Source: an uncultured Sphingomonadales bacterium
GTDB taxonomy: Bacteria > Pseudomonadota > Alphaproteobacteria > Sphingomonadales > Sphingomonadaceae
Direction: 5' to 3'
Length of the DNA: 47,578 nucleotides
Assembly (NCBI GenBank): GCA_937870585.1
Contig: CALMZE010000107.1
Location: 1-47,578 of the forward strand
Shown: positions 5,435 to 34,960 of the stretch, piece after piece
How the letters are laid out: every line of letters starts with the position of its first letter
Numbering within the stretch: the first letter of the stretch is position 1
Made by a program: the position numbers and the translations under genes
Notes under the pieces: generated by a model
What the model was told of the DNA's origin: nothing
Database searches by the model: none
The model's input: the letters and a program-made list of their open reading frames with translations, nothing else

Positions 5435-6603
5435 TACTTGAGTGCGAGGCCGTAAACGGTCGAGAAATCGAAATCCTGGGCGACGGTAATGCCGACATCT
5501 TCACCCTGATTTTTGCGCAGCACGGGTTTGATCTGGCCATTCTGCTGCAAGATCGTAGAGGCCGCGTCGGATGGAACGCGGGTGGTATTGGAGGCGCTGT
5601 TGCCGACGGCTTCTGCACCCACGGTTGCCGCGTCTTCGACAAGGCTGAAGAGCAGGGCGGTGCCGAAACGCTGCCAGAAGAAATTGTTCACGCGGCCATC
5701 CATCCCGCCGCGACCGAGAGCATCGGTCGCTGGCGAGGCGACATCGATCGCGATCCCGCGAGGGGTGACGGCGCGGGTCCACAGGACAAAGAGGCGGTAT
5801 TGGCCGCGATCAAGACCGCCCTGGTATTCACCAACGATCTTCGTGCCTTTTTCCATCAGCACGACACGGCCATTGTCGGAATAGATGTTGCGCGGGACGA
5901 TGCAGCTTACATAGCCGGGCTGACTTGAATCCATCGCGGATTGCAGGACGCACGGGATGAAGCTGCCTGCCGTGATGAGGAAATTGCGGTCGGGTAGCGT
6001 CCGGGCTTGCGCCTGTCCGATTGCCGATGCCTGGCGCAACGTGTCGAGATTGGTGGCCGGAGGCGAGGCCCGGGGGCCGGCGATCGCCGCGCCGCTATTG
6101 TCGCTATAGCGAACGCCTGCACTGCCACTGTCGCGCTCCCCGCCATAGGCAATCAGCGAAGACCGCCTTGCGGCTTCGCGCAACACTTCGGCTTGCGATG
6201 GCTGCCGGGCTTGCTGCGCGGCAGGCGGCGGAATCTGTGATGGCGCAGGTTGCGGGCCGATCGCGGGAACAATTGCAATCGGCGCGTTAGGATCGGTCGC
6301 AGCCCCCGCCAGCGTCGGTGCGATGACCGTTGCCGGGTCATACTGCGCCGGTTCGAGCGCCGGTCTGGGTTTGACCGGGGGAAGGGTCGAATTTCCAGTC
6401 AGCCCGGTTCCCAGTGCCAGCACGGTAAACATGATGGCGCCTGCGGCAGCGGCAAAGCCGATCATCTTTTTCGGGTCCATCGCCGTTCCCGGTATCGACG
6501 GCATCTTGCTCGCGCGTTCGGTAGCCGGGGCGCGGTCGATGTCCTCGGGATCAGGCGTTTGATCGACCGTAGCGCGCTCGCCCATTGGAATGTCGGCCAT
6601 CAT
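5434..6603 (-). CDS. virB10: VirB10-type channel scaffold protein
   Basis: VirB10 spans both membranes and forms the inner layer of the type IV core complex. The 389-residue protein has a short cytoplasmic start, one membrane segment at about residues 47-68, and a proline-rich periplasmic stretch. It ends in a conserved C-terminal domain with TRAVTPRGIAIDV and the following FFWQRFG segment that resembles the outer-membrane pore region. Two adjacent ATGs (6603 and 6600) are possible, and both overlap the virB9 stop. It is followed directly by virB11. Confidence 0.94.
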   Translation of the reverse strand: MMADIPMGERATVDQTPDPEDIDRAPATERASKMPSIPGTAMDPKKMIGFAAAAGAIMFTVLALGTGLTGNSTLPPVKPRPALEPAQYDPATVIAPTLAGAATDPNAPIAIVPAIGPQPAPSQIPPPAAQQARQPSQAEVLREAARRSSLIAYGGERDSGSAGVRYSDNSGAAIAGPRASPPATNLDTLRQASAIGQAQARTLPDRNFLITAGSFIPCVLQSAMDSSQPGYVSCIVPRNIYSDNGRVVLMEKGTKIVGEYQGGLDRGQYRLFVLWTRAVTPRGIAIDVASPATDALGRGGMDGRVNNFFWQRFGTALLFSLVEDAATVGAEAVGNSASNTTRVPSDAASTILQQNGQIKPVLRKNQGEDVGITVAQDFDFSTVYGLALK

Positions 6604-7469
6604 CTTCTCTCCCCATCCCCCTGAATTGGCGTGCGTTCGACGATGCTCGATGCTGTGCCCGTCTTCGGGTCGCGCCCGTAGAAATCGGGGGCTTCATTGA
6701 ACACGCACAGCACTTCCCTGCCGCGCCGGAGGCGAAGCTGGGCAAACACACCGTGGATCACGACAAATTCGTCGCGGACATCGAAGGGGACGATGCTTTC
6801 GCTTCCGTCCGGGTTGACCGCAAAGAATGCCGGAAGTTCGCGCTGGTTCGGAAAGCGCAGCGCGGTGAACTGGCCGTTGTCGGTAATCTCGCTAGGCTGG
6901 ATCGCCGACGAACCCTGGACCGAGTAGCTCAGGTTTCGCTTGCCTTCGAGCACGGCGAGATCGAGCGCCGAGCGGATCGCGCCCGCTTGCAGCGCAACCG
7001 CCCGGGTGTAAGCGGCCTGCGTTGCCGCTGCCTGCGCCGCCGCAGCTTCTTCGCGCGGATAGCGGAACACGACCTTGAAGAAGGTATCCGCAGACCGCGC
7101 GCCGATGGCGCCGCGCCGGGCCGATAACTCGAATGTATAGGTGCGATTACCGGTGCTGGACCGTGTGATGACGATCAGATTGGTCGATCCAGCCAATTCA
7201 CGCGGCTTGATGAACAGCGAGTTGTCGGCCGGGGCGACTTCCCATGAAACGGTGTCGCCAAGCGCGACATGCTCAACGCGCTCGCCGGGCGAAAACACGA
7301 TCTGGGTGGCGGAGCGGAAAACGCCGACGATACGGAAAACCTGGGTGTCGCTGTAAATGACTTCGCGGATGCGATTGTCCTGTGCGGTCGGTCGCGGGGT
7401 TTCGCTCGCCATTGCAGGTGGGCTGGTGAGCAGCAGTGCTATTGCCGTCAGGGAGCTCAAACGTTTCAT
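6600..7469 (-). CDS. virB9: VirB9-type core-complex protein
   Basis: VirB9 is a periplasmic and outer-membrane component of the core complex, partner of VirB7 and VirB10. From the ATG at 7469 the protein has 289 residues. It begins with a clear signal peptide (KRLSSLTAIALLL, cleavage near AMA-S at 22). The VirB9/CagX-type beta-rich domain follows, including YTFEL near residue 120 and the C-terminal DGRESIV-like block. The reading frame is open further upstream, but the signal peptide and an ATGA overlap with the virB8 stop fix this start. It is co-translated with virB8 and virB10. Confidence 0.92.
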   Translation of the reverse strand: MKRLSSLTAIALLLTSPPAMASETPRPTAQDNRIREVIYSDTQVFRIVGVFRSATQIVFSPGERVEHVALGDTVSWEVAPADNSLFIKPRELAGSTNLIVITRSSTGNRTYTFELSARRGAIGARSADTFFKVVFRYPREEAAAAQAAATQAAYTRAVALQAGAIRSALDLAVLEGKRNLSYSVQGSSAIQPSEITDNGQFTALRFPNQRELPAFFAVNPDGSESIVPFDVRDEFVVIHGVFAQLRLRRGREVLCVFNEAPDFYGRDPKTGTASSIVERTPIQGDGERR

Positions 7470-22044: not shown

Positions 22045-22476
22045 TCAATTCGATAGTCTCTTGCTGCTGGTTACAGACTTGGGCGCAACTCCGGCGGCAA
22101 GACCGGCTAGTATCGGACAATCGGGCCTTGCATCGCCGCTGCATCCCTCGACCAGTTCGAGCAGGGTGTGCCGCATCGCCTCCAGTGCCGCTGCCTTGCG
22201 GGCGAGTTCCTCGGCATGTTCGAGAGCGATGGCCTTGACCTCGCCGCTCGCTCGTGTCCGGTCGTCCCATAGGCTTAGAAGCGCTGATATCTCTTCGACC
22301 GAGAATCCGAGGTCGCGGGCATTGGCAATAAACCGCAGGCGCTCGATCGAAGGCGGCGGATAATCGCGATAGCCATTGTCCAGGCGATCGGGCAGCGGCA
22401 TCAGTCCGATACCCTCGTAGTGGCGGATCATCCGCAGCGACACGCCTGTTGCCTTTGAGACCTGGCCGATGTTCAT
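22045..22476 (-). CDS. cueR: CueR-type copper-responsive MerR regulator
   Basis: This cytoplasmic Cu(I) or Ag(I) sensor activates copper export genes by twisting promoters with over-long spacers. The 143-residue protein has the MerR winged helix at 1-70 ([13 protein letters not shown]...IRHYE). The metal loop has cysteines at 112 and 120, followed by PIL, the same spacing and numbers as E. coli CueR. It is co-translated with the DUF2933-like gene (ATGA overlap), downstream of the ATPase gene. A MerR-type promoter upstream of the ATPase gene is its likely target, which would also make it autoregulated. Confidence 0.92.
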   Translation of the reverse strand: MNIGQVSKATGVSLRMIRHYEGIGLMPLPDRLDNGYRDYPPPSIERLRFIANARDLGFSVEEISALLSLWDDRTRASGEVKAIALEHAEELARKAAALEAMRHTLLELVEGCSGDARPDCPILAGLAAGVAPKSVTSSKRLSN

Positions 22477-22676
22477 GGACGGTGCTCTTCCATTTGGTGA
22501 TGCTGCCCACGATGATGGCCGCCGTGGAAAAAGTGCAATAGCGGACAGACGAACAGGAAGGCGTAGGGAAGCAATCCGAAGAAGTGCGGGCGATGCTCGG
22601 GGTAGAGTAGGTAGGCGACGACGAGTGCCGCCGACAGAGTGGCCAGCAGCCAGGCCCGCTTGCTCGGGAAGCTCAT
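22473..22676 (-). CDS. DUF2933-like small membrane protein
   Basis: From the ATG at 22676 this 67-residue protein has two hydrophobic segments (about 10-24 and 32-49). A His-rich tail follows, [14 protein letters not shown]. Such short membrane proteins of the DUF2933 type are commonly found beside copper ATPases. The function is unknown; the His tail could bind metal. It overlaps the ATPase stop (ATGA) and the cueR start (ATGA), so the three genes form one translational unit. Two upstream codons beginning at 22688 are in frame but lie inside the ATPase gene. Confidence 0.75.
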
Positions 22677-25018
22677 AGCTCTATCCATCTGAGGCGCAGC
22701 GAATTGCCGATGACACTGACCGATGACAGCGCCATCGCCGCCGCTGCGATGATCGGCGAAAGCATGAGACCGAACAGCGGATAGAGCGCACCTGCCGCCA
22801 CGGGGATGCCCGCCACATTGTAGGCAAAGGCGAAAAACAGGTTCTGCCTGATATTGGCCATCGTTGCATGGCTGAGGTGCCGGGCGCGGGCGATCCCCGT
22901 CAAATCGCCCTTGAGCAGTGTGATGCCTGCGCTTTCAATCGCAACGTCTGTGCCGGTACCCATGGCGATGCCGACATCGGCGGCGGCGAGGGCTGGTGCA
23001 TCGTTCACGCCGTCGCCTGCCATTGCCACGATCCGCCCTTCGTCCCGCAAACGCTTGACGATGGCGCTTTTCTGATCGGGAAGGACATCGGCCTCGATAT
23101 CGTCGATGCCGAGACTTCGTGCGATGGCCTCTGCGGTGACGCGGTTGTCTCCCGTAAGCATGATGACGTGAATACCAGCTTCGCCCAGAGACTTGAGCGC
23201 CGCTGGTGTCGATACCTTGACCGGATCGGCGATGCCAATGGCGCCGACGATCTTTCCATCGACGCCAAGGTAGATCGCAGTTGCACCCTCCGCACGCAGG
23301 CGATTGGCCGGCTCGGCCAGATCGGCTGTCGAAATGCTCTGTTCTTCGAGAAAGCGGCCGTTGCCAGCGACGAGACGGTGCCCATCGACTATGCCGGTGA
23401 TGCCCTTGCCAACCGGTTGATCGACCTCGCCAGGCTCGCTGATGGCTAGGCCCCGCTCCGTGGCGGCTTTGACAATGGCGAGGGCAAGCGGATGTTCGCT
23501 GCTGCGTTCGAGACTGGCGGCAAGGCGCAGCACCTCGTCCTTGTCGAACCCGTTTGTCGTTTCGATGGCGACAACCGCAGGCTTGCCCTCAGTGAGCGTG
23601 CCGGTCTTGTCCACGACCAGCGTATCGACCTTCTCCATGCGCTCAAGTGCTTCGGCGTTCTTGATTAGGATTCCGGCCTGTGCACCGCGTCCGACGCCGA
23701 CCATGATCGACATCGGGGTGGCAAGGCCAAGCGCGCAGGGGCAGGCGATGATCAGCACGGCAACTGCCGCGATCAGACCATAGCCCATCGCCGGAGACGG
23801 GCCGACCAGCGACCAGATAATGAAGGCGATTCCCGCAACCGCGATTACCGCAGGCACGAACCAGCCTGAAACCGTGTCGGCAAGTCGCTGGATCGGCGCA
23901 CGGCTGCGCTGCGCGTCGGCGACCATCTGGACAATGCGCGCGAGCATGGTGTCGCGGCCGATCTTTTCGGCGCGCATCACCAGGCCACCGGTCTGGTTGA
24001 TCGTGCCGCCGATCAGCTTCGATGCTGCCTCCTTGGTAACGGGCATGGATTCGCCCGTCACCATCGATTCATCGACCGTGCCGCGTCCTTCCAGCACCAC
24101 GCCATCGACCGGCACCTTCTCGCCGGGGCGGACACGCAGGGTGTCGCCAACCTGCACTTGGTCGAGTGTAATCTCCTCGTCGCTCCCGTCAGCGCGAACT
24201 CGGCGAGCGAGCTTGGGCGAGAGATCGAGCAAGGCACGAATTGCGCCGCTGGTGGTCTCGCGGGCGCGCAGTTCGAGCAACTGGCCCAGGAGGACGAGGA
24301 CGGTGATGACTGCCGCTGCCTCGAAATAGACCGCGACCGCGCCGTCTGCCGCCCGGAACGCGGCTGGAAAAATGCCAGGTGCGAGCGTTGCCGCGACGCT
24401 GTAGATCCAGGCGACACCTGTCCCCATCGCGATCAGCGTGAACATGTTGAGGTGGCGGCTTCTGACCGAAGCCCAGCCACGTTGGAAGAAGGGCCAGCCA
24501 GCCCAGAGAACGACCGGCGTCGCCAGAGCCATCTGTATCAGGTTTGCGAGTTTGCCGTCGAAAAGGTGGCGAAGACCGGTCAGATGCCCGCCCATTTCAA
24601 GCGCGACCACAGGCAGGGCGAGGATGAGGCCGATCACGAACCGCCGCTTCATGTCCGCATATTCGCTCGACGGTCCGTCATCAAGCGTTGGCGTCATCGG
24701 CTCCAGCGCCATGCCGCAGATCGGGCAACTCCCCGGCCCAGGTTGCTGCACCTCGGGATGCATCGGGCAGGTCCAGATCGCTCCTTCGGGCGCCGTTTCC
24801 GTCCGGCGCGGCGCATCGCTCATATAACGCGCCGGGTCGGCTTCAAACTTGGCGAGGCAGCCAGCACTACAGAAATAATGATGGACCCCGCCATGGGTGG
24901 CGATGTGCGGCGTGGATGCGGGATCGACGCTCATTCCGCAAACGGGATCGATTGCCGTCCCCGAGGCTTTCGGCCCCGAATGGGCGCAATGTGCGTGATG
25001 TTGATGCGACTCGGTCAT
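22673..25018 (-). CDS. copA: CopA-type copper-exporting P1B ATPase
   Basis: This inner-membrane ATPase exports Cu(I) from the cytoplasm. From the ATG at 25018 it has 781 residues. A His-rich start (HQHHAHCAH) is followed by a YHS-type domain (DPVCGM...YFCSAGC) and a heavy-metal-binding domain (CPMHPEV...CPICGM). The P-type core then carries CPC near residue 425 and the phosphorylation motif DKTGTLTEG near 470. There is no classical HMA domain. A GTG at 25042 is in frame, but it lies between the -10 box and the expected transcript start, so 25018 is preferred. The adjacent multicopper oxidase is also called CopA by convention. Confidence 0.94.
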
Positions 25019-25042
25019 GGCATATATCCCTTCAGTCGCCAC

Positions 25043-25073
25043 TTTATGAACCTTGACATCATGTCAGGGTCAA
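25043..25073 (-). promoter_or_regulatory. MerR-type (CueR) operator-promoter for the copper ATPase operon
   Basis: On the - strand, -35 TTGACC (25073-25068) and -10 CATAAA (25048-25043) are separated by 19 bases, the stretched spacing typical of MerR-family promoters. The spacer is filled by a 21-bp dyad at 25050-25070, ACC.TGACAT.ATGTCA.GGT. The copD stop codon lies inside the -35 end. CueR, encoded two genes downstream, is the obvious regulator (inference). Confidence 0.82.
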
Positions 25074-26002
25074 GCGCCAATCTCTGCGAGCGGTTCGAGG
25101 GTGCCAAGCCAAGCCACCAAGGCGAGGATCGCGAACGCGGCACTCCCTTCCGCCAAGAGGCTCCACCGGAGTCTGACAATCGCCGAGGCTGGATCATTGT
25201 TGCTGATGGCGACTTCCAGTGCTGGCGTCAGCCGCCAGCGATTGACCCCGGCGATCGCCAGCATTGCGCCAAACAGCAGTAGCTTGATGATGAGCAGCTT
25301 GCCGTATGCGGAGAGCGGCAGCCGCGAGAAATGGGGAAACCCGACAACAGCAAGGCAATTGATAATGCCTGTGACCACGATCAGTCCGACTGCGAACGCG
25401 CCAATCCGCGAAAACTGGTTGAGCGCGCGGTGTGCCACGGCAATCTGCGCGCCCGAAATGGCGGTCAAGGGGCGAAGCAATATCCGCCCGAAAGCGGCAA
25501 TGCCGCCGAGCCAGACCGATGCCGCCAGCATGTGAACGATGTCGCTCGACCGATGGACCGTGCCGATCCAACCTTCCGTCGCACCGGCATGGCCGGTCCA
25601 GACCAGCGTGGCGATGGCAAGCGAGGTCGATGCGAGGACTACATACCGCGCCTTGGCAGTTCGGTTGATTGCGAAAGCAGACAAGACCGCAACCGCCAAC
25701 GCCGCCATCCGGACGATCCACGCGGTGCCGATTGCGCTCTCGCCGATGATCTCACGCAGGGCTTCGCGATCAACTGACCAGATGCTCGAACCGGTCATCG
25801 AAGCGGTCAGCGCAAGCATACCCAAACCGGAGACCGCGAACCCGGCCGAGGCGAGGACAAGACAGGGCGTTGCCAGCGGCAGAATGCCCGAATTGCGTTC
25901 TTTGGCCGTCAGAGCGTAAAGTGAGAATGCGACCATGCCCGCCAGCACCATCAGGTCGACATACAACACGAACCGGATGACGATGACGGGCAGATTGTCC
26001 AC
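25070..26002 (-). CDS. copD: CopD-family copper resistance membrane protein
   Basis: This polytopic inner-membrane protein is usually paired with CopC and is thought to move copper across the inner membrane or relay it. The 310-residue protein has about eight hydrophobic segments and family-typical motifs, including HRSSDIVHMLAASVWLGG near residues 150-167. The start is a GTG at 26002, with GAGATAGG just upstream, five bases after the copC stop. Its last codons overlap the promoter of the downstream ATPase gene. Confidence 0.88.
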   Translation of the reverse strand: MDNLPVIVIRFVLYVDLMVLAGMVAFSLYALTAKERNSGILPLATPCLVLASAGFAVSGLGMLALTASMTGSSIWSVDREALREIIGESAIGTAWIVRMAALAVAVLSAFAINRTAKARYVVLASTSLAIATLVWTGHAGATEGWIGTVHRSSDIVHMLAASVWLGGIAAFGRILLRPLTAISGAQIAVAHRALNQFSRIGAFAVGLIVVTGIINCLAVVGFPHFSRLPLSAYGKLLIIKLLLFGAMLAIAGVNRWRLTPALEVAISNNDPASAIVRLRWSLLAEGSAAFAILALVAWLGTLEPLAEIGA

Positions 26003-26007
26003 GTCGC

Positions 26008-26385
26008 CTATCTCACGGTGAAGCTGAAATTGCTGCCCATTCGGTGTGTGTCGGCTCCTGCGGCAGACCAGGTGACGCGGTAGGTGCCGGGCACTAGCGC
26101 GCGCTTGAGCAGCAGGGTCATCGACTTGCCGTCGCGGGCCATTTGCGAGGTATGGGCTATTTTCATTGGCGCGTGCTCGGCCATGCCCGGCATCCCGGTC
26201 ATCGCGACCTCGGTGCGGACCGTGGCGCTGATCAGCCGCTCATTGAAACGCAGCACAATCCGGGTCGGTGCGGCTACGGTCGCGCCCGCAGCGGGTGTCG
26301 AGCCGGTGAGCGAAGCGTGGGCGAAAGCTACCCCTGGCAAAGCGATCAGGGCGGCAAGGACGAAGGGCATGAATTGGCGGCGCAT
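26008..26385 (-). CDS. copC: CopC-type periplasmic copper-binding protein
   Basis: This is a periplasmic copper carrier. From the ATG at 26385 it has 125 residues. A signal peptide ends AFA-H, leaving the N-terminal histidine (H23) used for Cu(II) binding in this family. Further possible ligands are the Met-rich MTGMPGMAEHAPM stretch and a histidine in DTHRMGSNFSF. GGAG lies seven bases before the ATG. An open frame further upstream would run through the promoter region and is rejected. It is the first gene of the long - strand copper run. Confidence 0.92.
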   Translation of the reverse strand: MRRQFMPFVLAALIALPGVAFAHASLTGSTPAAGATVAAPTRIVLRFNERLISATVRTEVAMTGMPGMAEHAPMKIAHTSQMARDGKSMTLLLKRALVPGTYRVTWSAAGADTHRMGSNFSFTVR

Positions 26386-26417
26386 TGTGAAACTCCGGTC
26401 AGTTGCGTTCGATAGTG

Positions 26418-26444
26418 ATACGCACCCCTTCAGCGCATCCCTCA
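26418..26444 (-). promoter_or_regulatory. Predicted ECF sigma promoter for copCD
   Basis: Read on the - strand, TGAGGG (26444-26439) is followed after 14 bases by TGCGTAT (26424-26418). The 12 bases ending the first box, AAATTTTGAGGG, are identical in the promoter of the oxidase operon at 27783. The expected transcript start is about 25 bases before the copC ATG. The box faces the one for the cnrYXH-like genes back to back, forming the palindrome around 26439-26457. Confidence 0.75.
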
Positions 26445-26451
26445 AAATTTG

Positions 26452-26478
26452 TGAGGGGGATCGGCCGGCGTTGCGTAT
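26452..26478 (+). promoter_or_regulatory. Predicted ECF sigma promoter for the cnrYXH-like operon
   Basis: TGAGGG (26452-26457), 14 bases, then TGCGTAT (26472-26478). The layout equals the copCD and oxidase promoters. It stands 37 bases before the ATG of the anti-sigma-like gene, so the sigma factor probably drives its own operon. Confidence 0.75.
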
Positions 26479-26515
26479 AGATTTGCAGCAAACATGAATT
26501 GGATCGGAAGTAACG

Positions 26516-26779
26516 ATGGACGACTTGCTCAAACGGTTGGGCCAAGCGCCGCCCCCGGCGGCTTTGGGTCAAATCGACGATGCGATTATGGCAGCGTGGT
26601 TTGCCGAACAACGTGACCGGGCGACCCAAGCGCGCCTCTTGTCAGCCGCCGCGCTGGTTGCGCTGGGCCTGGGCCTTGCAGGCGGCAGCCTGTCAAGCGC
26701 GCCAGCACAAGCGTCGCCTGCCCTGTCGCCGTTCGCCTCGACTGCGCTCGCGCCATCCAATCTGCTGGACCCGCGTTGA
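26516..26779 (+). CDS. CnrY-like membrane anti-sigma factor
   Basis: This small protein of 87 residues has a cytoplasmic N-terminal part (about 1-40), one membrane segment (about 41-60) and a short periplasmic tail containing SPFAS. The size, layout and position match CnrY, the anti-sigma factor that holds CnrH at the membrane in Cupriavidus. Sequence similarity alone is weak, as is usual for this group. GGAAG lies before the ATG. It overlaps the sensor gene by one base (TGATG). Holding of the sigma factor encoded two genes downstream is the expected role (inference). Confidence 0.72.
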   Translation: MDDLLKRLGQAPPPAALGQIDDAIMAAWFAEQRDRATQARLLSAAALVALGLGLAGGSLSSAPAQASPALSPFASTALAPSNLLDPR

Positions 26780-27219
26780 TGGGATCGACCAAGCGCCTGT
26801 TGCTGATCGCGGTTATCGCCTTCGTAGCTGCCGCTGCGGGCGTCTTCGCAGCCCGGACTTATGTCGATGCTCCGCGCAAGAGCGAGAGCGAGATTCATGC
26901 CCTGCTTCACGACCAGCTCAGTCTTGATGCCACGCAGACAGCCAAGATCGAAGCGCTCGAAGCACGACATGCAACGCGCAAGACGGCGCTCGAACTGGAG
27001 ATGCGTGCAGCCAATGCGCGATTGGCCGAGGCGATTGACGCCGAGCATGGTTATGGACCGCAAGTCACGGCAGCGGTCGATCATGTGCACCATGTCATGG
27101 GCGAGATGCAAAAGGAGGTGCTTGAGCACCTGTTCGCCATGCGGGCCGTGCTCAACTCAGAACAGGCGAGCATCTTCGACAGGACCGTGGTCAAGGCGCT
27201 GACCGCCGAAGCGCGGTGA
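26779..27219 (+). CDS. CnrX-like periplasmic metal sensor
   Basis: This membrane-anchored periplasmic sensor would bind metal and release the anti-sigma complex. The 146-residue protein has one membrane helix (about 7-25) and then an all-helical domain. The residues matching the metal ligands of Cupriavidus CnrX are H40, H44, E61, H117 and M121, each exactly two lower than the CnrX numbers I recall (42, 46, 63, 119, 123). The surrounding blocks (IHALLH, RAANARLAEAI, EHLFAMR) also match. It overlaps the sigma gene (GTGA). In CnrX the signal is nickel or cobalt; here every neighbour is a copper gene. Confidence 0.88.
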   Translation: MGSTKRLLLIAVIAFVAAAAGVFAARTYVDAPRKSESEIHALLHDQLSLDATQTAKIEALEARHATRKTALELEMRAANARLAEAIDAEHGYGPQVTAAVDHVHHVMGEMQKEVLEHLFAMRAVLNSEQASIFDRTVVKALTAEAR

Positions 27220-27785
27220 GCCTCGATCTCTCCCAATGCAGCGACGGGGATCTCGCAGCGCTCGCACTTGGCGGGCAGCAGTTGGCATATCGCGAATTTC
27301 TGCGCCGCTACAAGGAGCCAGTTTATCGCCTGATCAGAGGAAGCATCGGCGACGCCGACGAAGCCTTGGATCTCACACAAGAGACGTTCGTTGCCGCCTT
27401 TTCTGCGCTCAAACGCTATGAGCCAGAGCGGCCTTTCCGGCATTGGGTGGCGCGTATCGCTCTCAACAAATGCCGTGACTGGTCGCGGCGCCAGGCTGTG
27501 CGCTCATTTTTCCGGAAGGCGCGGCCAATCGAAGAAGCCTTCGATCTTTCCAGCGACACCCCATCACCCGAAGTCGAAGCGGGCGACCGGGCCGAGCTGG
27601 CGCGGGTGGCGGGTGCCATGGCCAACCTGCCGCAGAAATTGCGGCAGGTTCTGGTGCTGCGCGCGGTCGAGGGGCTGACTCAGGCCGAAGCTGCCGATGC
27701 CCTCGGTGTTACCGAAAAGGCCGTCGAAACCCGGCTCTATCGCGCGCGACAGCAGCTCGCCCAATGGCTTGACGAAAAATTTTGA
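27216..27785 (+). CDS. ECF sigma factor (CnrH-like)
   Basis: This alternative sigma factor of the extracytoplasmic-function type would direct RNA polymerase to metal-stress promoters. The 189-residue protein has region 2 (DEALDLTQETFVAAFSAL, about 47-66, then RPFRHWVARIALN) and region 4 (LPQKLRQVLVLRAVEGLTQAEAADALGV, about 137-165). It starts at a GTG overlapping the sensor stop. Its own stop codon forms part of the next promoter, at 27783. Three matching promoter sequences nearby are its likely targets. Confidence 0.92.
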   Translation: MSLDLSQCSDGDLAALALGGQQLAYREFLRRYKEPVYRLIRGSIGDADEALDLTQETFVAAFSALKRYEPERPFRHWVARIALNKCRDWSRRQAVRSFFRKARPIEEAFDLSSDTPSPEVEAGDRAELARVAGAMANLPQKLRQVLVLRAVEGLTQAEAADALGVTEKAVETRLYRARQQLAQWLDEKF

Positions 27786-27809
27786 GGGGCGAGCGGTCGT
27801 GATGCGTAT
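27783..27809 (+). promoter_or_regulatory. Predicted ECF sigma promoter for the multicopper oxidase operon
   Basis: TGAGGG (27783-27788), 14 bases, then TGCGTAT (27803-27809), followed after 36 bases by the oxidase ATG. The TGA of the first box is also the stop codon of the sigma factor gene. The upstream AAATTTT is identical to that of the copCD promoter. Confidence 0.75.
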
Positions 27810-27845
27810 GGATTAAAACCCCTCTGAAATGGCACTCTCCAAGCT

Positions 27846-29699
27846 ATGTCCCTTGCTCTTAATCGACGCAATTTTGTCGCCGTCGCTGCCGCCGGGGGCG
27901 GCGGTGTCGCCTTGGCGTCGCTGTTTCCTGCATGGGCGCAGCCGGTTTCATCTGGGATCATTGCGCCTCTGCCGGTCGTTTCGGGCAACGACATAACCTT
28001 GCGTATCGCACGCCAGACGATGCGGATCGACGGCAAGCTGTCGCGCGCCATCGGCATCAATGGCACCGTTCCGGGGCCGCTTATCCGCTTGAAGCAGGGT
28101 CAGACCGCGCGGCTCAACGTGGTCAACGACCTAGATGTCGAAAGCTCGATCCACTGGCACGGCCTGTTGTTGCCGTTTCAGATGGACGGTGTGCCAGGGG
28201 TCAGCTTTCCGGGCATCAAGCCGCGCTCGACCTTCGTCTATGAATTCCCGGTCATTCAATCGGGGACATATTGGTATCACAGCCATTCGGGGTTGCAGGA
28301 GCAGCTGGGACATTACGGTCCCATTGTCATCGATCCCGAAGGCGCCGATCCCATCGGCTACGACCGCGAGCATGTCGTGGTGCTTTCCGACCACAGCCAG
28401 CTTTCGCCCGAAGCGATCTTCCGCAAGATGAAGGTCAACCCCGGCCACTTCAACATGCAGCGGCAGACGCTCAGCGGCCTGCTTGCCGGCAAAGACCAGC
28501 CGCTCAAGGAACGGATCGAATGGGGCCGGATGCGGATGGACCCGACCGACATCGCCGACGTCAACGGTTCGACCTATCAGTTCCTCGTCAACGGTCACGG
28601 GCCGAAAGACAACTGGACGGCGCTGTTCACGCCCGGCGAGCGCGTCCGGCTGCGCATCATCAATGCGTCGGCCATGTCGATCTTCAATGTCCGTATTCCG
28701 GGACTTCGCCTGACAATCGTTCAGGCCGATGGGCTCAATGTCCGCCCGGTCGAGGTCGATGAATTCCAGATCGCCGTCGCCGAAACCTATGATGTGATCG
28801 TCACCCCGGCTGGGGAGCATGCCTATACGCTGGTTGCCGAAGCCAATGACCGTTCCGGCATGGGCCGCGCGACATTGGCTCCGCGCGCAGGGATGGTGGC
28901 CGAAGTGCCGCCTTTGCGCGAACGCCCGCTCACCACGATGAAAGACATGGGCATGGGCGACATGGACATGTCGGGCGGCGCGATGGCGGGCATGGATCAT
29001 TCGGGTATGGCGATGGGAACGGCACCGAGCGCACCTGCCGCTTGCCCGCCCGAACACGCCAAGATGGGCCATTGCACGCCCGCCGCCGCCGCGCCCGCTG
29101 CGGTCGATCACAGCGCGATGGGGCATGGCAGCGGCGGTATGGATCACTCTATGCGCGACTTCTCGGTTGCCCCGCAGGTCGACAAAAATCCAGGTGTCCA
29201 GACGATCTCGCCGATGCCGGTCGACCGCGTGGGCGAACCCGGCCAGGGCTTGGAAAACGTCGGACACAAAGTGCTGACCTATCGCGATCTTGTCGCGCTC
29301 GACCGCAACCCGGACGTTCGCGCGCCCGAACGCTCGCTCGACATTCACCTGACCGGCAACATGGAGCGCTTCATGTGGTCGTTCGACGGCATGAAGATGT
29401 CCGATCATCACGAACCCATCCCGTTCCTCGAAGGCGAGCGCGTGCGGATCAACCTCATCAACGATTCGATGATGAGCCATCCCATTCACCTGCACGGTCA
29501 TTTCTTCGAGCTGGTCACGGGCAAGGGCGACCATTCACCGCGCAAGCATACCGTGCTGGTTCAGCCCGGCGGCACAGCGTCATTCGACTTTACAGCCGAC
29601 GCGCTCGGGGACTGGGCTTTCCACTGCCACATGCTCTATCACATGCACGCCGGGATGATGCGTGTCGTCAGCGTTCGCCCGCGCGGGGAAGCGGTATGA
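27846..29699 (+). CDS. copA: Multicopper oxidase CopA (PcoA type)
   Basis: This periplasmic oxidase probably oxidises Cu(I) to Cu(II). The 617-residue protein has a twin-arginine signal (NRRNF, cleavage near AWA-Q). Copper sites lie in HWHG (103-106), YHSHSG near 140-145, HPIHLHGH near 545 and HCHMLYHMH near 593. A Met/Asp/His-rich insert follows the second cupredoxin domain (MGMGDMDMSGG and onward). It contains the motif CPPEHAKMGHC from residue 400, also found twice in the next protein. It is expressed from a predicted ECF promoter and overlaps copB (ATGA). Confidence 0.95.
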   Translation: MSLALNRRNFVAVAAAGGGGVALASLFPAWAQPVSSGIIAPLPVVSGNDITLRIARQTMRIDGKLSRAIGINGTVPGPLIRLKQGQTARLNVVNDLDVESSIHWHGLLLPFQMDGVPGVSFPGIKPRSTFVYEFPVIQSGTYWYHSHSGLQEQLGHYGPIVIDPEGADPIGYDREHVVVLSDHSQLSPEAIFRKMKVNPGHFNMQRQTLSGLLAGKDQPLKERIEWGRMRMDPTDIADVNGSTYQFLVNGHGPKDNWTALFTPGERVRLRIINASAMSIFNVRIPGLRLTIVQADGLNVRPVEVDEFQIAVAETYDVIVTPAGEHAYTLVAEANDRSGMGRATLAPRAGMVAEVPPLRERPLTTMKDMGMGDMDMSGGAMAGMDHSGMAMGTAPSAPAACPPEHAKMGHCTPAAAAPAAVDHSAMGHGSGGMDHSMRDFSVAPQVDKNPGVQTISPMPVDRVGEPGQGLENVGHKVLTYRDLVALDRNPDVRAPERSLDIHLTGNMERFMWSFDGMKMSDHHEPIPFLEGERVRINLINDSMMSHPIHLHGHFFELVTGKGDHSPRKHTVLVQPGGTASFDFTADALGDWAFHCHMLYHMHAGMMRVVSVRPRGEAV

Positions 29700-30781
29700 A
29701 GCGCACCCGCCTATTTCTTGTTGGCCTCGCCGCTACGGCGTTCGCCCCGCCTGCCTTCGCCCAGCCGATGCAGGGGATGGACCATTCTTCGATGCCAGGA
29801 ATGCCTAAGCCCGAAACACCCGTGCCGCCTGCGCCGCCGCCTTCGGAATGCACGCCGGAACACGCGGAGATGGGGCACTGCACCCTTGCGCCCAGCCAGC
29901 CCGATACAGGTGCCGCTGCTTCGCCCGAAGTCATCGGCGACCCCGATTGTCCTCCCGAACACGCCGAGATGGGTCATTGCAAGCCGCAGTCGGGCAGCGA
30001 GCCGATTGCCGATGCCAACAAGTCAGGGACGGACCTGCCTCCCGGCGATGTCCCGGCCCCAGCGGCACCGGACGATTGGTATGCGGATCGCATATACTCG
30101 CCGTCCGAAATGGCGCGATCGCGCGATCAGATGATGAGGGAAAATGGCGGGCAGACGCTCGCATTCATCAGCTTCAATCTTGCCGAGTATCAGGCACGAC
30201 TAGGCCGCGACGGATATCGCTGGGACGGCGAAGGCTGGTATGGCGGCGACATCAACCGGGTGACGGTCAAGAGCGAGGGCGAAGGCACATTTGGCGAAGG
30301 GGTCGATGAGGCCGAGATCCAGCTACTCTACAGCCGCGCGGTCGGTCCCTATTTCAATCTTCAAGCCGGTGTGCGGCAAGATTTGGGGCCGAAGCCGCGG
30401 CGGACCTACGCGACCATCGGGTTCGAAGGCTTGGCACCCTACTGGTTCGAGGTTGAAGGCGCGCTGTTCCTGTCGAACAAGGGTGACGCGCTGGGTCGGC
30501 TCGAAGGCTATTACGATCAGCGGATCACTCAGCGGTTGATTCTTCAGCCGCGTGCGGAGGTGAATTTCGCGTTTCAAGACGTGCCGGAGAACCGTATCGG
30601 CTCGGGACTGTCCGATGTCGAATTGGGACTTCGCTTGCGCTATGAAGTGCGCAAAGAATTCGCGCCTTACATTGGGGTCGAATGGGCGAGGAAAGTTGGG
30701 GACACGGCGCGCTATGCCCGTGCTGCGGGGGAGGATGCAGACGTGACCAATTTCGTCGCCGGAATCCGCTTCTGGTTTTGA
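29696..30781 (+). CDS. copB: CopB/PcoB-type outer-membrane copper resistance protein
   Basis: This is an outer-membrane beta-barrel of the CopB/PcoB family, partner of the oxidase. From the ATG at 29696 it has 361 residues. A signal peptide ends AFA-Q, and a long linker follows with MDHSSMPGM and two copies of C.PEHAEMGHC. The barrel domain starts near residue 130 (GWYGGDINRV) and ends in the aromatic FWF expected of outer-membrane proteins. It overlaps copA before and the PepSY gene after. The duplicated Cys/His/Met motif is probably a metal-binding extension. Confidence 0.92.
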   Translation: MKRTRLFLVGLAATAFAPPAFAQPMQGMDHSSMPGMPKPETPVPPAPPPSECTPEHAEMGHCTLAPSQPDTGAAASPEVIGDPDCPPEHAEMGHCKPQSGSEPIADANKSGTDLPPGDVPAPAAPDDWYADRIYSPSEMARSRDQMMRENGGQTLAFISFNLAEYQARLGRDGYRWDGEGWYGGDINRVTVKSEGEGTFGEGVDEAEIQLLYSRAVGPYFNLQAGVRQDLGPKPRRTYATIGFEGLAPYWFEVEGALFLSNKGDALGRLEGYYDQRITQRLILQPRAEVNFAFQDVPENRIGSGLSDVELGLRLRYEVRKEFAPYIGVEWARKVGDTARYARAAGEDADVTNFVAGIRFWF

Positions 30782-31500
30782 TGGGAAGGCGAACGCGCTT
30801 CCACCTGGCCGCTAGCCGCGTCCACAAATGGCTGGCGGTGATCATCGGCGCGCAGCTCTTAATCTGGTTCGCCAGCGGTGCGTTGATGAGCTTCCTTTCG
30901 ATCGACAAGGTTCGCGGGGAGCATCTGGTCGACCGCGAAGCTATCGCAATCATTCCGCCCGATACGCGGATGGTCGCTTCGGAAACGCTGCTCACACAGG
31001 CCGACGCGCCGGTTGAAGCGATTGCCTGGCGGATGCTTGACGGAAAGCTGATTGCCGAGGTTGCGACGGGAAAGGGCGTCCGCCTGTTCGATGCCCGCAA
31101 CGGCGCGGCCTTGCCTCCGGTCGATGCGATCCAAGCCACCCGGATTGCCCGATCAGCCTGGAAAGATGCTGACAAACCTGCATCGCAGCCGAGCCGCGTG
31201 TCTACCGAAAGCCCAGAATATCGTGGCGCGCTGCCCGCATGGCGCATCGCCTTCGCCGACCCCGATCACACCAGCGTTTTCGTCGCGGCGGAAACCGGCA
31301 AGATTACCGCTGTCCGCAACGGGACGTGGCGGCTCTACGACTTCTTCTGGAGTCTGCACATCATGGACTGGAAGAACCATGAGGATTTCAATACCTGGTG
31401 GCTGCTGGCGTTTGCCATCGGCGGGCTGGCGTTGGGCGTCGCCGGGACAATCCTGCTGTTCATGCGCTGGCCTTTTCGGCGGGCGCGGCGCAATGCCTGA
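30781..31500 (+). CDS. PepSY-type membrane protein
   Basis: This 239-residue protein has an N-terminal membrane helix (about 17-40), a periplasmic part of about 150 residues, and a C-terminal helix (about 210-230). Motifs such as RVHKWLAVIIGAQLLIW and SLHIMDWKNHEDFNTWW are typical of PepSY-associated membrane proteins, some of which act in iron or copper reduction. The start is the ATG overlapping the copB stop (TGATG). Co-translation with copAB suggests a role in periplasmic copper chemistry, but no activity can be assigned. Confidence 0.82.
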   Translation: MGRRTRFHLAASRVHKWLAVIIGAQLLIWFASGALMSFLSIDKVRGEHLVDREAIAIIPPDTRMVASETLLTQADAPVEAIAWRMLDGKLIAEVATGKGVRLFDARNGAALPPVDAIQATRIARSAWKDADKPASQPSRVSTESPEYRGALPAWRIAFADPDHTSVFVAAETGKITAVRNGTWRLYDFFWSLHIMDWKNHEDFNTWWLLAFAIGGLALGVAGTILLFMRWPFRRARRNA

Positions 31501-32198: not shown

Positions 32199-32666
32199 TC
32201 AATGCGCAGCGCCGTCAGGTCGCCCAAGGTTCTCCCTCTGGTTTACAGCGCCGCAAAAGGGGGTGCCCGACAAGGCGTTCAATATCGGGCAACCGCAGAA
32301 ATCGCGCGATTCGCAGTCGGCAACTGCCCCAGCAAGAATCGCTTCCATCTCTTGTAAATCGGAAAGCTTGGAGCGCACCATTGCAAGGTTGGCCTTGGCA
32401 ATGTCATGCGCTTCATTGCAAGCATTGGGTTGCAACCCATCGAGGCCAAGCAGCGCTTTGACTTCTTCGAGCGAGAATCCAAGTTCCCGCGCGCGGAGGA
32501 TGAACTGCAACCTTTGCACCAGTTCCGGCGAATAGACCCTGTAACCATTGGCGCTACGCTGTGGTGCCGGGAGCAATCCGACCTTCTCGTAATAGCGGAT
32601 GGTTTCGAGATTACAGCCGGTCTTCCGGGCGAGTTGGGCACGCAAAATGCCGCCTTGTGGTTCCAT
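32199..32666 (-). CDS. merR: MerR mercury-responsive regulator
   Basis: This is the repressor and activator of the mercury operon. From the ATG at 32666 it has 155 residues. The N-terminal helix-turn-helix covers about 8-75 (RAQLARKTGCNLETIRYYE). The mercury ligands expected of MerR are present: C83, C118 and C126, with an extra cysteine at 124, before PIL. It is divergent from merT across a 75-base control region. Upstream codons in frame to 32729 would run through the operator and are rejected. Confidence 0.9.
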   Translation of the reverse strand: MEPQGGILRAQLARKTGCNLETIRYYEKVGLLPAPQRSANGYRVYSPELVQRLQFILRARELGFSLEEVKALLGLDGLQPNACNEAHDIAKANLAMVRSKLSDLQEMEAILAGAVADCESRDFCGCPILNALSGTPFCGAVNQRENLGRPDGAAH

Positions 32667-32676
32667 AAAAAACCCC

Positions 32677-32707
32677 TTGAGTCTGTAGTTACTACAGAGA
32701 TTACACT
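32677..32707 (+). promoter_or_regulatory. MerR operator-promoter for merTPA
   Basis: -35 TTGAGT (32677-32682), 19-base spacer, -10 TACACT (32702-32707). The spacer holds a perfect dyad TCTGTAG-TTA-CTACAGA at 32682-32698. The 19-base spacing and centred dyad are the hallmark of MerR control. The transcript would start about 30 bases before the merT GTG. Confidence 0.85.
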
Positions 32708-32741
32708 GCGAATCACAAAGTCGAAACAAAGGAATCTTGCC

Positions 32742-33137
32742 GTGGCCTCAACGCCTGAAAAGGGAACTCCCGTTGCTACCGAAATCCCGAAGGGCGACCG
32801 GTCGGGCTGGTTTGCAACTGGCGCTCTCATCGGCGCGGGGCTGGCCTCGGCTTGTTGTGTCGTGCCGCTACTGTTCGTCACTCTTGGCATTTCCGGGGCC
32901 TGGATTGCCAACCTGACGGCCTTGGAGCCCTACAAACCCTATGTTGCGGTGATCACGCTCGCGCTGCTCGGATTTGGTTTCTGGCATGTCTATTTCAAGC
33001 CGAAGCCACCTTGCGCAGACGGGACATACTGTGCCCGTCCGCGGTCGGCGCGCACCACCAAGGCGGCGCTGTGGCTGGGGCTGGCCATCGTCCTACTCGC
33101 GCTCTCCATCGATTGGTGGGCGCCCCTGTTCTATTGA
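32742..33137 (+). CDS. merT: MerT mercuric ion transporter
   Basis: This inner-membrane importer delivers Hg(II) to the cytoplasm for reduction. From a GTG at 32742 it has 131 residues. Three membrane segments are visible (about 22-45, 55-73 and 106-123), with the paired cysteines ACCVVP in the first and a second pair in the loop CADGTYC. AAAGGAA lies eight bases before the GTG. ATGs further upstream are in frame but lie before or within the promoter. Confidence 0.9.
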   Translation: MASTPEKGTPVATEIPKGDRSGWFATGALIGAGLASACCVVPLLFVTLGISGAWIANLTALEPYKPYVAVITLALLGFGFWHVYFKPKPPCADGTYCARPRSARTTKAALWLGLAIVLLALSIDWWAPLFY

Positions 33138-33149
33138 AAGGAAATACCC

Positions 33150-33476
33150 ATGAAAAAGACATCGCTCTTCGGACTTGCCGTGCTGGCAATGGCAGGCGGC
33201 GGGGTCGCATTCGCAGTTGGCGGCGCGGCCCAGGATCGGCCAGCGGCTGCAAGCGCGCAAACGCAAACCACTTTCGCGATCCAGAACATGACCTGCGCCA
33301 CCTGTCCCATCACTGTGAAGAAGGCGATGGAAGGTGTGACCGGGGTTAGCGCGGTCAGCGTTGATTTTGGTGCCAAGACCGCGCGCGCGACTTATGATCC
33401 GCGCCGGACCAATGCGACGGCGATTGCCGCTGCATCGACCAATGCAGGCTATCCGGCACGCGCCGTCAACAACTGA
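33150..33476 (+). CDS. merP: MerP periplasmic mercury-binding protein
   Basis: This periplasmic carrier passes Hg(II) to MerT. The 108-residue protein has a signal peptide (about 1-22) and an HMA-type domain with MTCATC (about 47-52) as the metal site. AAAGGAA precedes the ATG. It follows merT by 12 bases. Confidence 0.93.
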   Translation: MKKTSLFGLAVLAMAGGGVAFAVGGAAQDRPAAASAQTQTTFAIQNMTCATCPITVKKAMEGVTGVSAVSVDFGAKTARATYDPRRTNATAIAAASTNAGYPARAVNN

Positions 33477-33517
33477 GATCGGGCGGCGAACTGCGCGCCG
33501 GAGGAAAGCGACCTGTA

Positions 33518-34960
33518 ATGAACGACTGTTGTAACCGCCTTGTTGGGCGGGAGGGATACGATGTGGCCGTTGTCGGCGCGGGCTCGGCGGGGTTTTCCGC
33601 CGCGATTACCGCTGTCGAACTTGGTGCCAAGGTCGCACTGATCGGCCACGGCACCATTGGCGGCACCTGCGTCAATGTGGGTTGCGTCCCGTCCAAGACC
33701 CTGATCCGCGCCGCAGAGGCGGTGCATGGCGGAAAGGCTTCTGCGCGCTTTCCTGGTCTTGGCGGCAGTGTCAGTCTGGACAACTGGACTGCGCTTGCCA
33801 CGTCGAAAGATGATCTGGTTACGGAGTTGAGGCAGAAGAAATATGTCGACCTGCTGCCAGCCTATGAGAGCGTGACCTATATCGAGGGCAAGGCGCGCTT
33901 TGCCGATCGCAAGTTGCTGGTTGGCGATGCGCCGATGAAAGCCGGCAAGGTCATTTTGGCGATGGGCGCGCGCGCCGCCGTGCCGACAATTCCAGGTCTC
34001 GACAGTGTACCCTACCTTACCAGCACATCGGCGCTGGCGCTTGAGCGTCTGCCGAAATCCTTGCTGGTCATTGGCGGCGGCGTGATCGGCGTCGAGCTGG
34101 GGCAGATGTTTGCGCGCCTCGGTGTTTCCGTCACAATCTGTTGCCGCAGCCGCCTGCTGCCCGAAATGGACACGGAAGTCGGCGCGGCACTGCAAAGCTA
34201 TCTCGAAGCCGAGGGCGTGCGCGTGTGTTCGGGTATCGACTATCAGCGCATCGACTCCACGGCCAACGGAATAGAGTTGACCTGCGAAAGCCTGTCTTGC
34301 GACGCCGTTGCAGCGGTTAAGACCATTGCGGCCGAGCAAGTGTTGATCGCCACCGGACGTCGCCCCAACAGCAACGGCATGGGCCTCGAAGATCATGGCA
34401 TCGCGCTGGGCCGGAGCGGCGGCATCGTGGTTGACGAATATCTCGAAACCAGCGTTCCGGGCATCTACGCCGCAGGCGATGTCACGGGCCGCGACCAATT
34501 CGTCTATATGGCCGCCTATGGGGCGAAGCTGGCCGCGCGCAATGCTGTCGAAGGCAATCAGCGCCGCTACGACAATAGCACCATGCCATCGGTTGTGTTC
34601 ACCGATCCGCAGGTTGCCAGTGTTGGCCTCACCGAGATGGCGGCGCGCGCGCAAGGGCATGAGGTCAAGGTATCGCTGCTCCCGCTCGATGCGGTGCCTC
34701 GGGCCTTGGCCGCGCGTGACGCGCGCGGGCTCATCAAGCTGGTCGCCGACAAGGCGAGCGACCGGCTGCTCGGCGGCCAAATCATGGCCCCCGAAGGCGC
34801 GGATTCGATCCAGACGCTGGTCCTGGCGATCAAGCACGGAATGACCGCAGCCGATCTCGGCGCGACGATCTTCCCCTATCTGACTACGGTCGAGGGGTTG
34901 AAGCTGGCCGCGCAGACCTTCGACAAGGATGTGGCGAAACTCTCCTGCTGCGCTGGGTAG
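33518..34960 (+). CDS. merA: MerA mercuric reductase
   Basis: This cytoplasmic flavoenzyme reduces Hg(II) to Hg(0) with NADPH. The 480-residue protein has an FAD-binding start (VVGAGSAGFSAA), the redox-active pair C51 and C56 in GGTCVNVGC, an NADPH-binding GGGVIGVELG, and the C-terminal mercury-binding pair C477-C478. The N-terminal HMA domain found in many MerA proteins is absent; only a short tail with CC at residues 4-5 precedes the core. It is the last gene of the operon. No clear terminator hairpin follows. Confidence 0.95.
   Translation: MNDCCNRLVGREGYDVAVVGAGSAGFSAAITAVELGAKVALIGHGTIGGTCVNVGCVPSKTLIRAAEAVHGGKASARFPGLGGSVSLDNWTALATSKDDLVTELRQKKYVDLLPAYESVTYIEGKARFADRKLLVGDAPMKAGKVILAMGARAAVPTIPGLDSVPYLTSTSALALERLPKSLLVIGGGVIGVELGQMFARLGVSVTICCRSRLLPEMDTEVGAALQSYLEAEGVRVCSGIDYQRIDSTANGIELTCESLSCDAVAAVKTIAAEQVLIATGRRPNSNGMGLEDHGIALGRSGGIVVDEYLETSVPGIYAAGDVTGRDQFVYMAAYGAKLAARNAVEGNQRRYDNSTMPSVVFTDPQVASVGLTEMAARAQGHEVKVSLLPLDAVPRALAARDARGLIKLVADKASDRLLGGQIMAPEGADSIQTLVLAIKHGMTAADLGATIFPYLTTVEGLKLAAQTFDKDVAKLSCCAG

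Follow-up and report, generated by a model that had tools for sequence, protein, structure and literature searches.

A 47,578-nucleotide stretch of contig CALMZE010000107.1 of an uncultured Sphingomonadales bacterium (family Sphingomonadaceae), analyzed whole and called here the window, carries genes for a small membrane protein, a periplasmic metal sensor, and an extracytoplasmic function (ECF) sigma factor between two groups of copper resistance genes. The locus is likely to encode a CnrYXH-type relay that senses metal at the membrane and induces copper defence through its ECF sigma factor. One promoter sequence, TGAGGG-N14-TGCGTAT, precedes the relay genes and both copper operons, here and in many relatives, and control of copper defence by the relay is therefore very probable. 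We conclude that the system is a variant of the CnrYXH circuit wired to copper genes, with copper as its probable inducer. The evidence comprises the classes of the genes, three promoter-like sites, their conservation, their match to the cnrY and cnrC starts of Cupriavidus metallidurans, and the copper genes alongside, all read from sequence. The features are as follows.

26452-26478, plus strand: predicted ECF promoter of the anti-sigma/sensor/sigma operon; exact motif, with the stripped core (defined below) here in 94 of 99 loci (control windows, 0.95%)
26418-26444, minus strand: predicted ECF promoter facing copC, copD, and the copper ATPase gene; exact motif, core on this strand and in this position in 76 of 99 loci
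27783-27809, plus strand: predicted ECF promoter of the multicopper oxidase operon; exact motif, core downstream of the sigma gene in 76 of 99 loci (control windows, 2.07%)
26516-26779, plus strand: CnrY-like small membrane anti-sigma protein, 87 amino acids; one hydrophobic segment, PxxLL tail
26779-27219, plus strand: CnrX-like periplasmic metal sensor, 146 amino acids; Pfam Metal_resist 3.8e-16, CnrX 7.5e-18, fold match
27216-27785, plus strand: CnrH-like ECF sigma factor, 189 amino acids; best solved match CnrH (4cxf), 1.4e-32
27846-29699, plus strand: multicopper oxidase CopA (copper resistance); TIGR01480, 804 bits (cut-off 479)
29696-30781, plus strand: CopB outer-membrane copper resistance protein; PF05275, 2.7e-90 (run on 29699-30781)
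30781-31500, plus strand: PepSY-TM protein, next gene of the operon; PF03929, 1.8e-10; also present in the second copy on contig C78 (see below)
26008-26385, minus strand: CopC periplasmic copper-binding protein; NF033814, 96.5 bits (cut-off 95)
25070-26002, minus strand: CopD copper membrane protein; NF033808, 261 bits (cut-off 195)
22673-25042, minus strand: copper-translocating P-type ATPase, start codon uncertain; TIGR01511, 592 bits (cut-off 397)

The ATPase gene lies 27 bp after copD and probably shares the copCD transcript. Among solved structures, the second-best match of the sigma factor is a SigE at 1.3e-19, far behind CnrH. The anti-sigma and sensor genes overlap by 1 nt and the sensor and sigma genes by 4 nt, and these overlaps are identical in cnrY-cnrX-cnrH of plasmid pMOL28. 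A preliminary description of this DNA had called the system CnrYXH-like, and the sensor fold, the metal ligands, the nearest sigma factor, and the gene overlaps all agree with that name.

The motif in the window and in its own genome

An exact search of the window finds TGAGGG-N14-TGCGTAT three times, at 26418-26444 (minus strand), 26452-26478 (plus strand), and 27783-27809 (plus strand), which bears out the positions, strands, and common spacing given in the preliminary description. The sequence that it reported as shared by two of the sites is AAATTTTGAGGG, identical at the copC and multicopper oxidase sites, and the anti-sigma site reads AATTTGTGAGGG. The first two motifs diverge between copC and the small anti-sigma gene, and the third overlaps the 3' end of the sigma gene, the TGA of its TGAGGG (27783) doubling as the stop codon. 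A scan of positions 26300-28000 against Rfam gave no match.

The 3.80-Mb assembly from which the window comes contains six exact motifs, against approximately 0.10 expected from the base composition of the window, and the reversed pattern used as a control has no exact match there. The preliminary description had named an equally frequent occurrence at random places as the result that would count against the motif, and these counts speak otherwise. The three motifs outside the window form the same trio on contig C78, in a second copper locus with identical layout and genes. The two copies agree at every base of the motif but at only 10, 5, and 6 of the 14 spacer positions, suggesting that the motif is maintained while the spacer drifts. 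With up to 3 mismatches the window has 13 matches against 11.6 expected, which is no excess over chance, so that only the exact matches carry weight there. The whole genome has one match at 1 mismatch, inside an opposite-strand open frame of 389 codons that to us reads like an acyl-CoA dehydrogenase, and 62 at 2 mismatches; the total for up to 2 mismatches is 69, and the reversed pattern yields 21 at that tolerance. Relaxed searching by itself, with these 63 matches at 1 or 2 mismatches, was therefore dropped, and only exact or position-restricted matches are used below.

Two features of the copies may be recorded here. The divergent -35 boxes (window 26439-26457) are 7 bp apart, separated by AAATTTG, so that two polymerases can hardly sit there simultaneously. 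The gap is also 7 bp in the C78 copy; a fixed gap was nevertheless rejected as a general feature, since it varies in other genomes. The C78 module (C78:4400-13000; L009) is complete and has the same three motifs, and with a sensor 88% identical and a multicopper oxidase only 62% identical to those of the window, it indicates that the assembly holds two diverged copies.

The motif occupies three fixed places in related genomes

We surveyed 199 genomes of the same family, own genome included, and found 87 exact motifs in 50 of them, against 1 for the reversed pattern. The sensor was sought separately in these genomes and found at 100 places in 81 of them; it was present in 46 of the 50 motif-bearing genomes, compared with 81 of 199 overall. 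Fifty-nine of the 87 exact motifs lay within 5 kb of a sensor, and 54 clustered in three narrow bands, measured from the start of the sensor gene (23 ahead of the anti-sigma gene, 14 on the divergent strand, and 17 immediately behind the sigma gene). The preliminary description had proposed a search beside CnrX homologues, and in the 82 loci read (the 2 of the own genome and 80 fetched stretches covering 81 of the other 98 sensor places) the motif, with up to 2 mismatches, sat at these same places: 77 loci had it ahead of the anti-sigma gene, 64 on the divergent strand, and 61 behind the sigma gene, whereas control windows placed at random in the same loci gave 0.5% and 0.95%.

A larger set of 99 loci (the window, 97 fetched stretches including the own second copy, and C. 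metallidurans) was read with a stripped core, defined as GAGGG, AAGGG, or GAGTG, then 15 to 18 bases, then CGTA. This core was found before the anti-sigma gene in 94 loci, divergently in 76, and after the sigma gene in 76, the corresponding control windows giving 0.95% and 2.07%. The conserved part of the -10 box is CGTA, with T or C before GCG and T or A after it. The spacer was 16 bases in 235 cases and 17 in 12; lengths of 15 and 18 were allowed and none occurred. A spacer of 16 was favoured among control matches too (62 of 94 in short windows and 141 of 207 in long windows), perhaps because some control matches are real sites. Spacer length was rejected as a mark separating copper from nickel systems, since 17 also occurs at at least one site of the copper loci L147, L148, L193, L195, and L198.

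Contigs from named organisms, partly overlapping those of the family survey, were retrieved with a Sphingobium plasmid sensor as the query, and the best 80 of 172 were taken. They hold 64 distinct promoter regions, with the core at the three places in 61, 61, and 58. Overall, conservation reaches approximately 37% sensor identity and extends into other families. Within the same best 80 of 172, 17 records (L231-L247, from Sphingobium, Sphingomonas, and Novosphingobium and including pSLPG of SYK-6) share a 100% identical sensor, implying recent spread. Of 79 sensor-matching plasmid records, 40 are typed conjugative and 6 come from Cupriavidus. NCBI labels the sensor on sphingomonad plasmids "periplasmic heavy metal sensor."

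The motif resembles mapped cnr promoters

The transcript-start table in PMC9045368 lists starts at 53286 and 54660 of C. metallidurans pMOL28, before cnrY and cnrC. The pMOL28 sequence reads CAAGGG-N17-CGTAT at the cnrY start and CGAGGG-N17-CGTAT at the cnrC start, and both mapped starts are the eighth base after CGTAT, which falls within the 5-10 bases that the preliminary description had allowed. One site precedes the Y gene and the other directly follows the H gene, the same two places as in the window, with a spacer one base longer; in another locus (L200), the core occurs with N17 at each of the two. Transfer of the cnrYp and cnrCp starts to the window predicts starts at 26486, 26410, and 27817 for the relay, copC, and copA transcripts, with leaders of 30, 25, and 29 nt to the start codons. 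Because the motifs are placed for autoregulation, recur at three fixed places, and share the cores of the cnrY and cnrC start sites, they very probably serve the neighbouring ECF sigma factor as promoters. The preliminary description had called them ECF promoters, and their fixed positions in related loci and the cores shared with mapped starts strengthen that assignment.

Copper genes and other genes behind the motif elsewhere

We inspected 22 exact motifs in 20 further stretches. The motif precedes CopC in L173, with a CopD-like frame behind it, and a multicopper oxidase in L186. It also precedes DUF411 proteins (tested in L179, L182, and L185; by sequence in L180 and L183), which are probable metal-binding members of the regulon; all five of these proteins bear a CGCC motif. 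Further exact motifs precede TonB-dependent receptors (L181 and L184, and by sequence L183), each of approximately 900 amino acids, a DUF2231 membrane protein in L187, and a His/Met-rich small protein in L171 that has no Pfam match. The targets of the motif are thus mostly, not exclusively, known copper genes. In L170 (G102, with the same string in G099), an exact motif lies 34 nt before another ECF sigma gene, which may represent a cascade or chance.

The sensor keeps the CnrX ligands and has an additional His/Met pair

When the sensor was searched by sequence against solved structures, the matches were CnrX and NccX chains only. Its predicted structure has a mean predicted local distance difference test score (pLDDT) of 90 and matches CnrX (2y3d) with a TM-score of 0.86 over the target. 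Residues H40, H44, E61, H117, and M121 of the window sensor correspond to the five CnrX ligands. On the CnrX side we take three of these to be H42, H46, and H119, placed by alignment; E63 and M123 are named in the titles of PDB mutant entries. The full His/His/Glu/His/Met set is present in 96 of the 99 sensors; of the other three, one has Val for Met, one is cut, and one has an Asp and an Ile. This last sensor (L199, G333), from another family and linked to copper, has Asp for His40 and Ile for Met121, keeps His104/Met107, and amounts to a natural nickel-site mutant.

The 99 sensors fall into two types. Three are of the CnrX type (C. metallidurans CnrX, L200, and L201); they lie beside a CnrA-like resistance-nodulation-division (RND) pump, in stretches that hold no copper genes. 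The other 96 are copper-type sensors, and all 96 have the additional pair His104/Met107, at which the three CnrX-type sensors have Glu/Ala. At least one of CopA, CopB, CopC, and CopD is encoded in the stretch for 90 of the 96. The six without such a gene are L094, L105, L110, L126 (a 4-kb contig), L129, and L192; four of them (L105, L126, L129, and L192) carry a relative of the window ATPase at 49-59% identity, and L094 and L110 carry none of these genes. Among the named loci (best 80 of 172), His104/Met107 is present in 80 of 80 and a copper gene in 79 of 80. In a tree of 42 sensors, the two types are split by a branch with 100/100 support. A single branch suggests that the residues changed only once, so that their association with copper is correlative.

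In the model, residues 94-124 form one helix, with H104 and M107 lying 10 to 13 residues before His117. By helix geometry, His104 and Met107 would lie approximately 20 and 15 Å along the helix from His117, a distance suggesting a second site or a gate, outside the first site. It is conceivable, and we put it forward tentatively, that the sensor keeps the nickel site yet became a copper sensor, with H104/M107 perhaps forming a copper site or gate. If so, the relay would be a copper switch still tripped by nickel, which would explain nickel-induced copper genes in a sphingomonad.

The anti-sigma protein and a model of the circuit

The anti-sigma protein resembles CnrY in its size, its single hydrophobic segment, and its PxxLL tail, and has no match in Pfam or the PDB. 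A first strong profile match to CnrY was rejected; the profile held two CnrY-type rows, and the match vanished without them. Homology to CnrY is plausible, though weak at the level of sequence.

In the resting state, the CnrY-like protein would hold the sigma factor at the inner membrane. Binding of a metal, most likely copper, by the CnrX-like sensor would release this hold, and the freed sigma factor would bring RNA polymerase to TGAGGG-N14-TGCGTAT before its own operon, the copC-copD-ATPase genes, and the copA-copB-PepSY genes. Copper would then be bound in the periplasm, oxidized, and exported, and the relay would reinforce its own expression.

Weighing the copper circuit against other explanations

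Several observations weigh against a copper relay of this kind. Thirty-five of the 81 sensor genomes lack an exact motif, 33 of the 87 exact motifs fall outside the three bands, L201, one of the three CnrX-type loci, has no core at these places, and one published table labels the cnrY start RpoD-type. At least seven of the motifs outside the bands (the far ones of L169, L172, and L174-L178), inside long open frames and with no copper gene that we could recognise after them, were set aside as chance. In L188, exact motifs stand on both sides of an intergenic region and face a DUF6152 gene. A profile built from copper-type anti-sigma rows alone did not find CnrY at E values up to 10, and hhalign of the anti-sigma protein with CnrY gave a probability of 45.6 (E 2.1e-4). 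An RND relative scoring above 300 bits occurs in 13 of the 96 copper-type loci, 12 of these also having copper genes. Because all five CnrX ligands are present, nothing in the first shell accounts for a preference for copper. Finally, nickel raises transcripts of CopA, CopB, and CopC in Sphingobium sp. ba1 (see below), where these genes are candidate targets of a circuit of this type.

L188 (G138, 5255-7111) is also of interest in itself. It holds a divergent sensor/sigma pair whose sensor is weakly Metal_resist-like (below the Pfam cut-off) and without the histidine ligands, and it is possibly a sister circuit reading another signal. Because the cnr sites share the core and L188 carries the motif, the motif class as such is not specific to copper. 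The preliminary description had suggested a copper-dedicated circuit. This holds for the wiring only, with copper genes near 90 of the 96 copper-type sensors, since the complete CnrX ligand set is retained; a few motifs in related genomes precede genes that are not known as copper genes, and copper itself is proposed here as the probable signal.

The strongest competing explanation is that the sensor still reads nickel and cobalt, or any divalent metal, and that the copper genes are merely the output, making the relay a cross-wired or broad metal alarm. The conserved ligand set (H40, H44, E61, H117, and M121 in 96 of 99 sensors) fits this idea, as does the report in PMC7689651 that Met123 of CnrX, which is kept in the window sensor, is required for the nickel and cobalt response. 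In Sphingobium sp. ba1 treated with 10 mM nickel, transcripts of the CopA-CopB operon and of CopC were raised, an effect described there as unreported for nickel, and a CopS-type two-component system was also induced (PMC5557971). The rise in cop transcripts would suit a nickel-sensitive or broad relay and makes a mixed signal possible; strain ba1 is absent from the sensor loci listed among the best 80 of 172. Nevertheless, copper genes neighbour 90 of the 96 copper-type sensors, the three CnrX-type sensors lie across the 100/100 branch, and the H104/M107 pair is confined to the copper side. Moreover, a structure titled as copper-bound CnrX exists (3epv), so the CnrX site can hold copper. A nickel, cobalt, or general metal signal is on these grounds unlikely.

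Far less probable is a second explanation, in which the motif is no sigma factor promoter and instead binds another copper regulator, either CopR of a two-component system or CueR. Copper genes are often controlled in this way, and a MerR-family regulator gene does lie at 22045-22476. However, the motif has two fixed boxes with a gap of 16 to 17 bases and one orientation per operon, predicts starts 25 to 30 nt before start codons, has the same cores as the mapped cnrY and cnrC starts, and tracks the sensor and sigma genes. That the motif merely reflects shared ancestry or coding constraint in a recently spread island, as the mobility of the module (17 records with an identical sensor, 40 of 79 plasmid records typed conjugative) and the overlap of one motif with the sigma stop codon might suggest, is highly improbable, given conservation to approximately 37% sensor identity and in other families, spacers that drift while the motif stays, and two of three places that are intergenic and on opposite strands.

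Neighbouring metal genes

The MerR-family regulator gene at 22045-22476 lies behind the copper ATPase gene and is CueR-like by position; in Sphingobium sp. SYK-6 the corresponding position holds an annotated cueR. This regulator may be the one that detects copper in the cytoplasm, leaving the periplasm to the ECF relay. On the other side, 3' of the copper operons, window positions 32199-34960 encode a MerR-family regulator, MerT, an HMA-domain protein, and a pyridine-nucleotide reductase that may be MerA. This mercury-type set marks the window as a multi-metal region.

Comparison with known systems

A search of the open-access literature found no description of a CnrYXH-type copper circuit, subscription papers lying mostly outside its scope and published ECF classifications possibly listing the group. 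The copper switches named in the accessible parts of the literature and records surveyed are two-component systems, CueR-type regulators, CorE, SigF, and SigAb. What we describe is a rewiring of the known CnrYXH relay to copper genes, and it is well supported. It adds a CnrYXH-type relay wired to periplasmic copper operons across one family (sensor in 81 of 199 genomes) and also on conjugative plasmids.

Among ECF sigma factors linked to copper, the SigF-NrsF system of Caulobacter crescentus has a C. metallidurans counterpart, gig. Like the proposed circuit, SigF and its regulon are copper-induced, and a sigF mutant is copper-sensitive (PMC8224329); unlike it, SigF uses the promoter GTAACC-N16-CGAA (PMC3511200) and has DUF692, DUF2282, and DoxX targets, and the accessible portions of these sources make no mention of a CnrX-type sensor. 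CorE of Myxococcus xanthus likewise drives a multicopper oxidase and a copper ATPase, but according to the available text of PMC10141476 it binds copper through a cysteine-rich C-terminal part of the sigma factor itself, with no anti-sigma relay. Such an extension is absent from the window sigma factor, whose region 4 ends at residue 181 of 189 and whose tail has no cysteine. SigAb-AabA-AabB of Acinetobacter comprises a copper-responsive ECF sigma factor and a small membrane anti-sigma factor likened to CnrY, but its -35 element is GTCAAC, its -10 element is CGTT, and its sigma gene comes first in the operon; the direct regulon as given in the abstract includes no copper gene (PMC12153292).

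Near the window sensor no RND match was found, the neighbours being CopA, CopB, CopC, CopD, and the copper ATPase. The efflux target of ncc is the NccCBA RND pump, and because an RND efflux target is missing, the window circuit is not a cnr or ncc determinant. NccX of strain 31A (4clv) is a close solved relative of the window sensor, but has Glu/Ala at the H104/M107 positions; the PDB title gives nickel, cobalt, and cadmium as the metals of NccYXH.

The nickel/cobalt system CnrYXH of C. metallidurans pMOL28 shares with the window circuit its gene order, the 1-nt and 4-nt overlaps, the CnrX fold, the five ligands, a CnrH-like sigma factor, and sites with a GAGGG or AAGGG box and a CGTAT core upstream of the Y gene and immediately downstream of the H gene. 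The two differ in that the window circuit has copper genes as neighbours where pMOL28 has cnrCBAT, a third, divergent promoter on copCD, a spacer of mostly 16 instead of 17 bases, and the additional H104/M107 in the sensor; the anti-sigma sequences are barely alike. Together, sensors wired to nickel and sensors wired to copper, alike in their five ligands, form a natural pair that bears on how periplasmic sensors choose their metal, and H104/M107 are the obvious first candidate residues for that choice.

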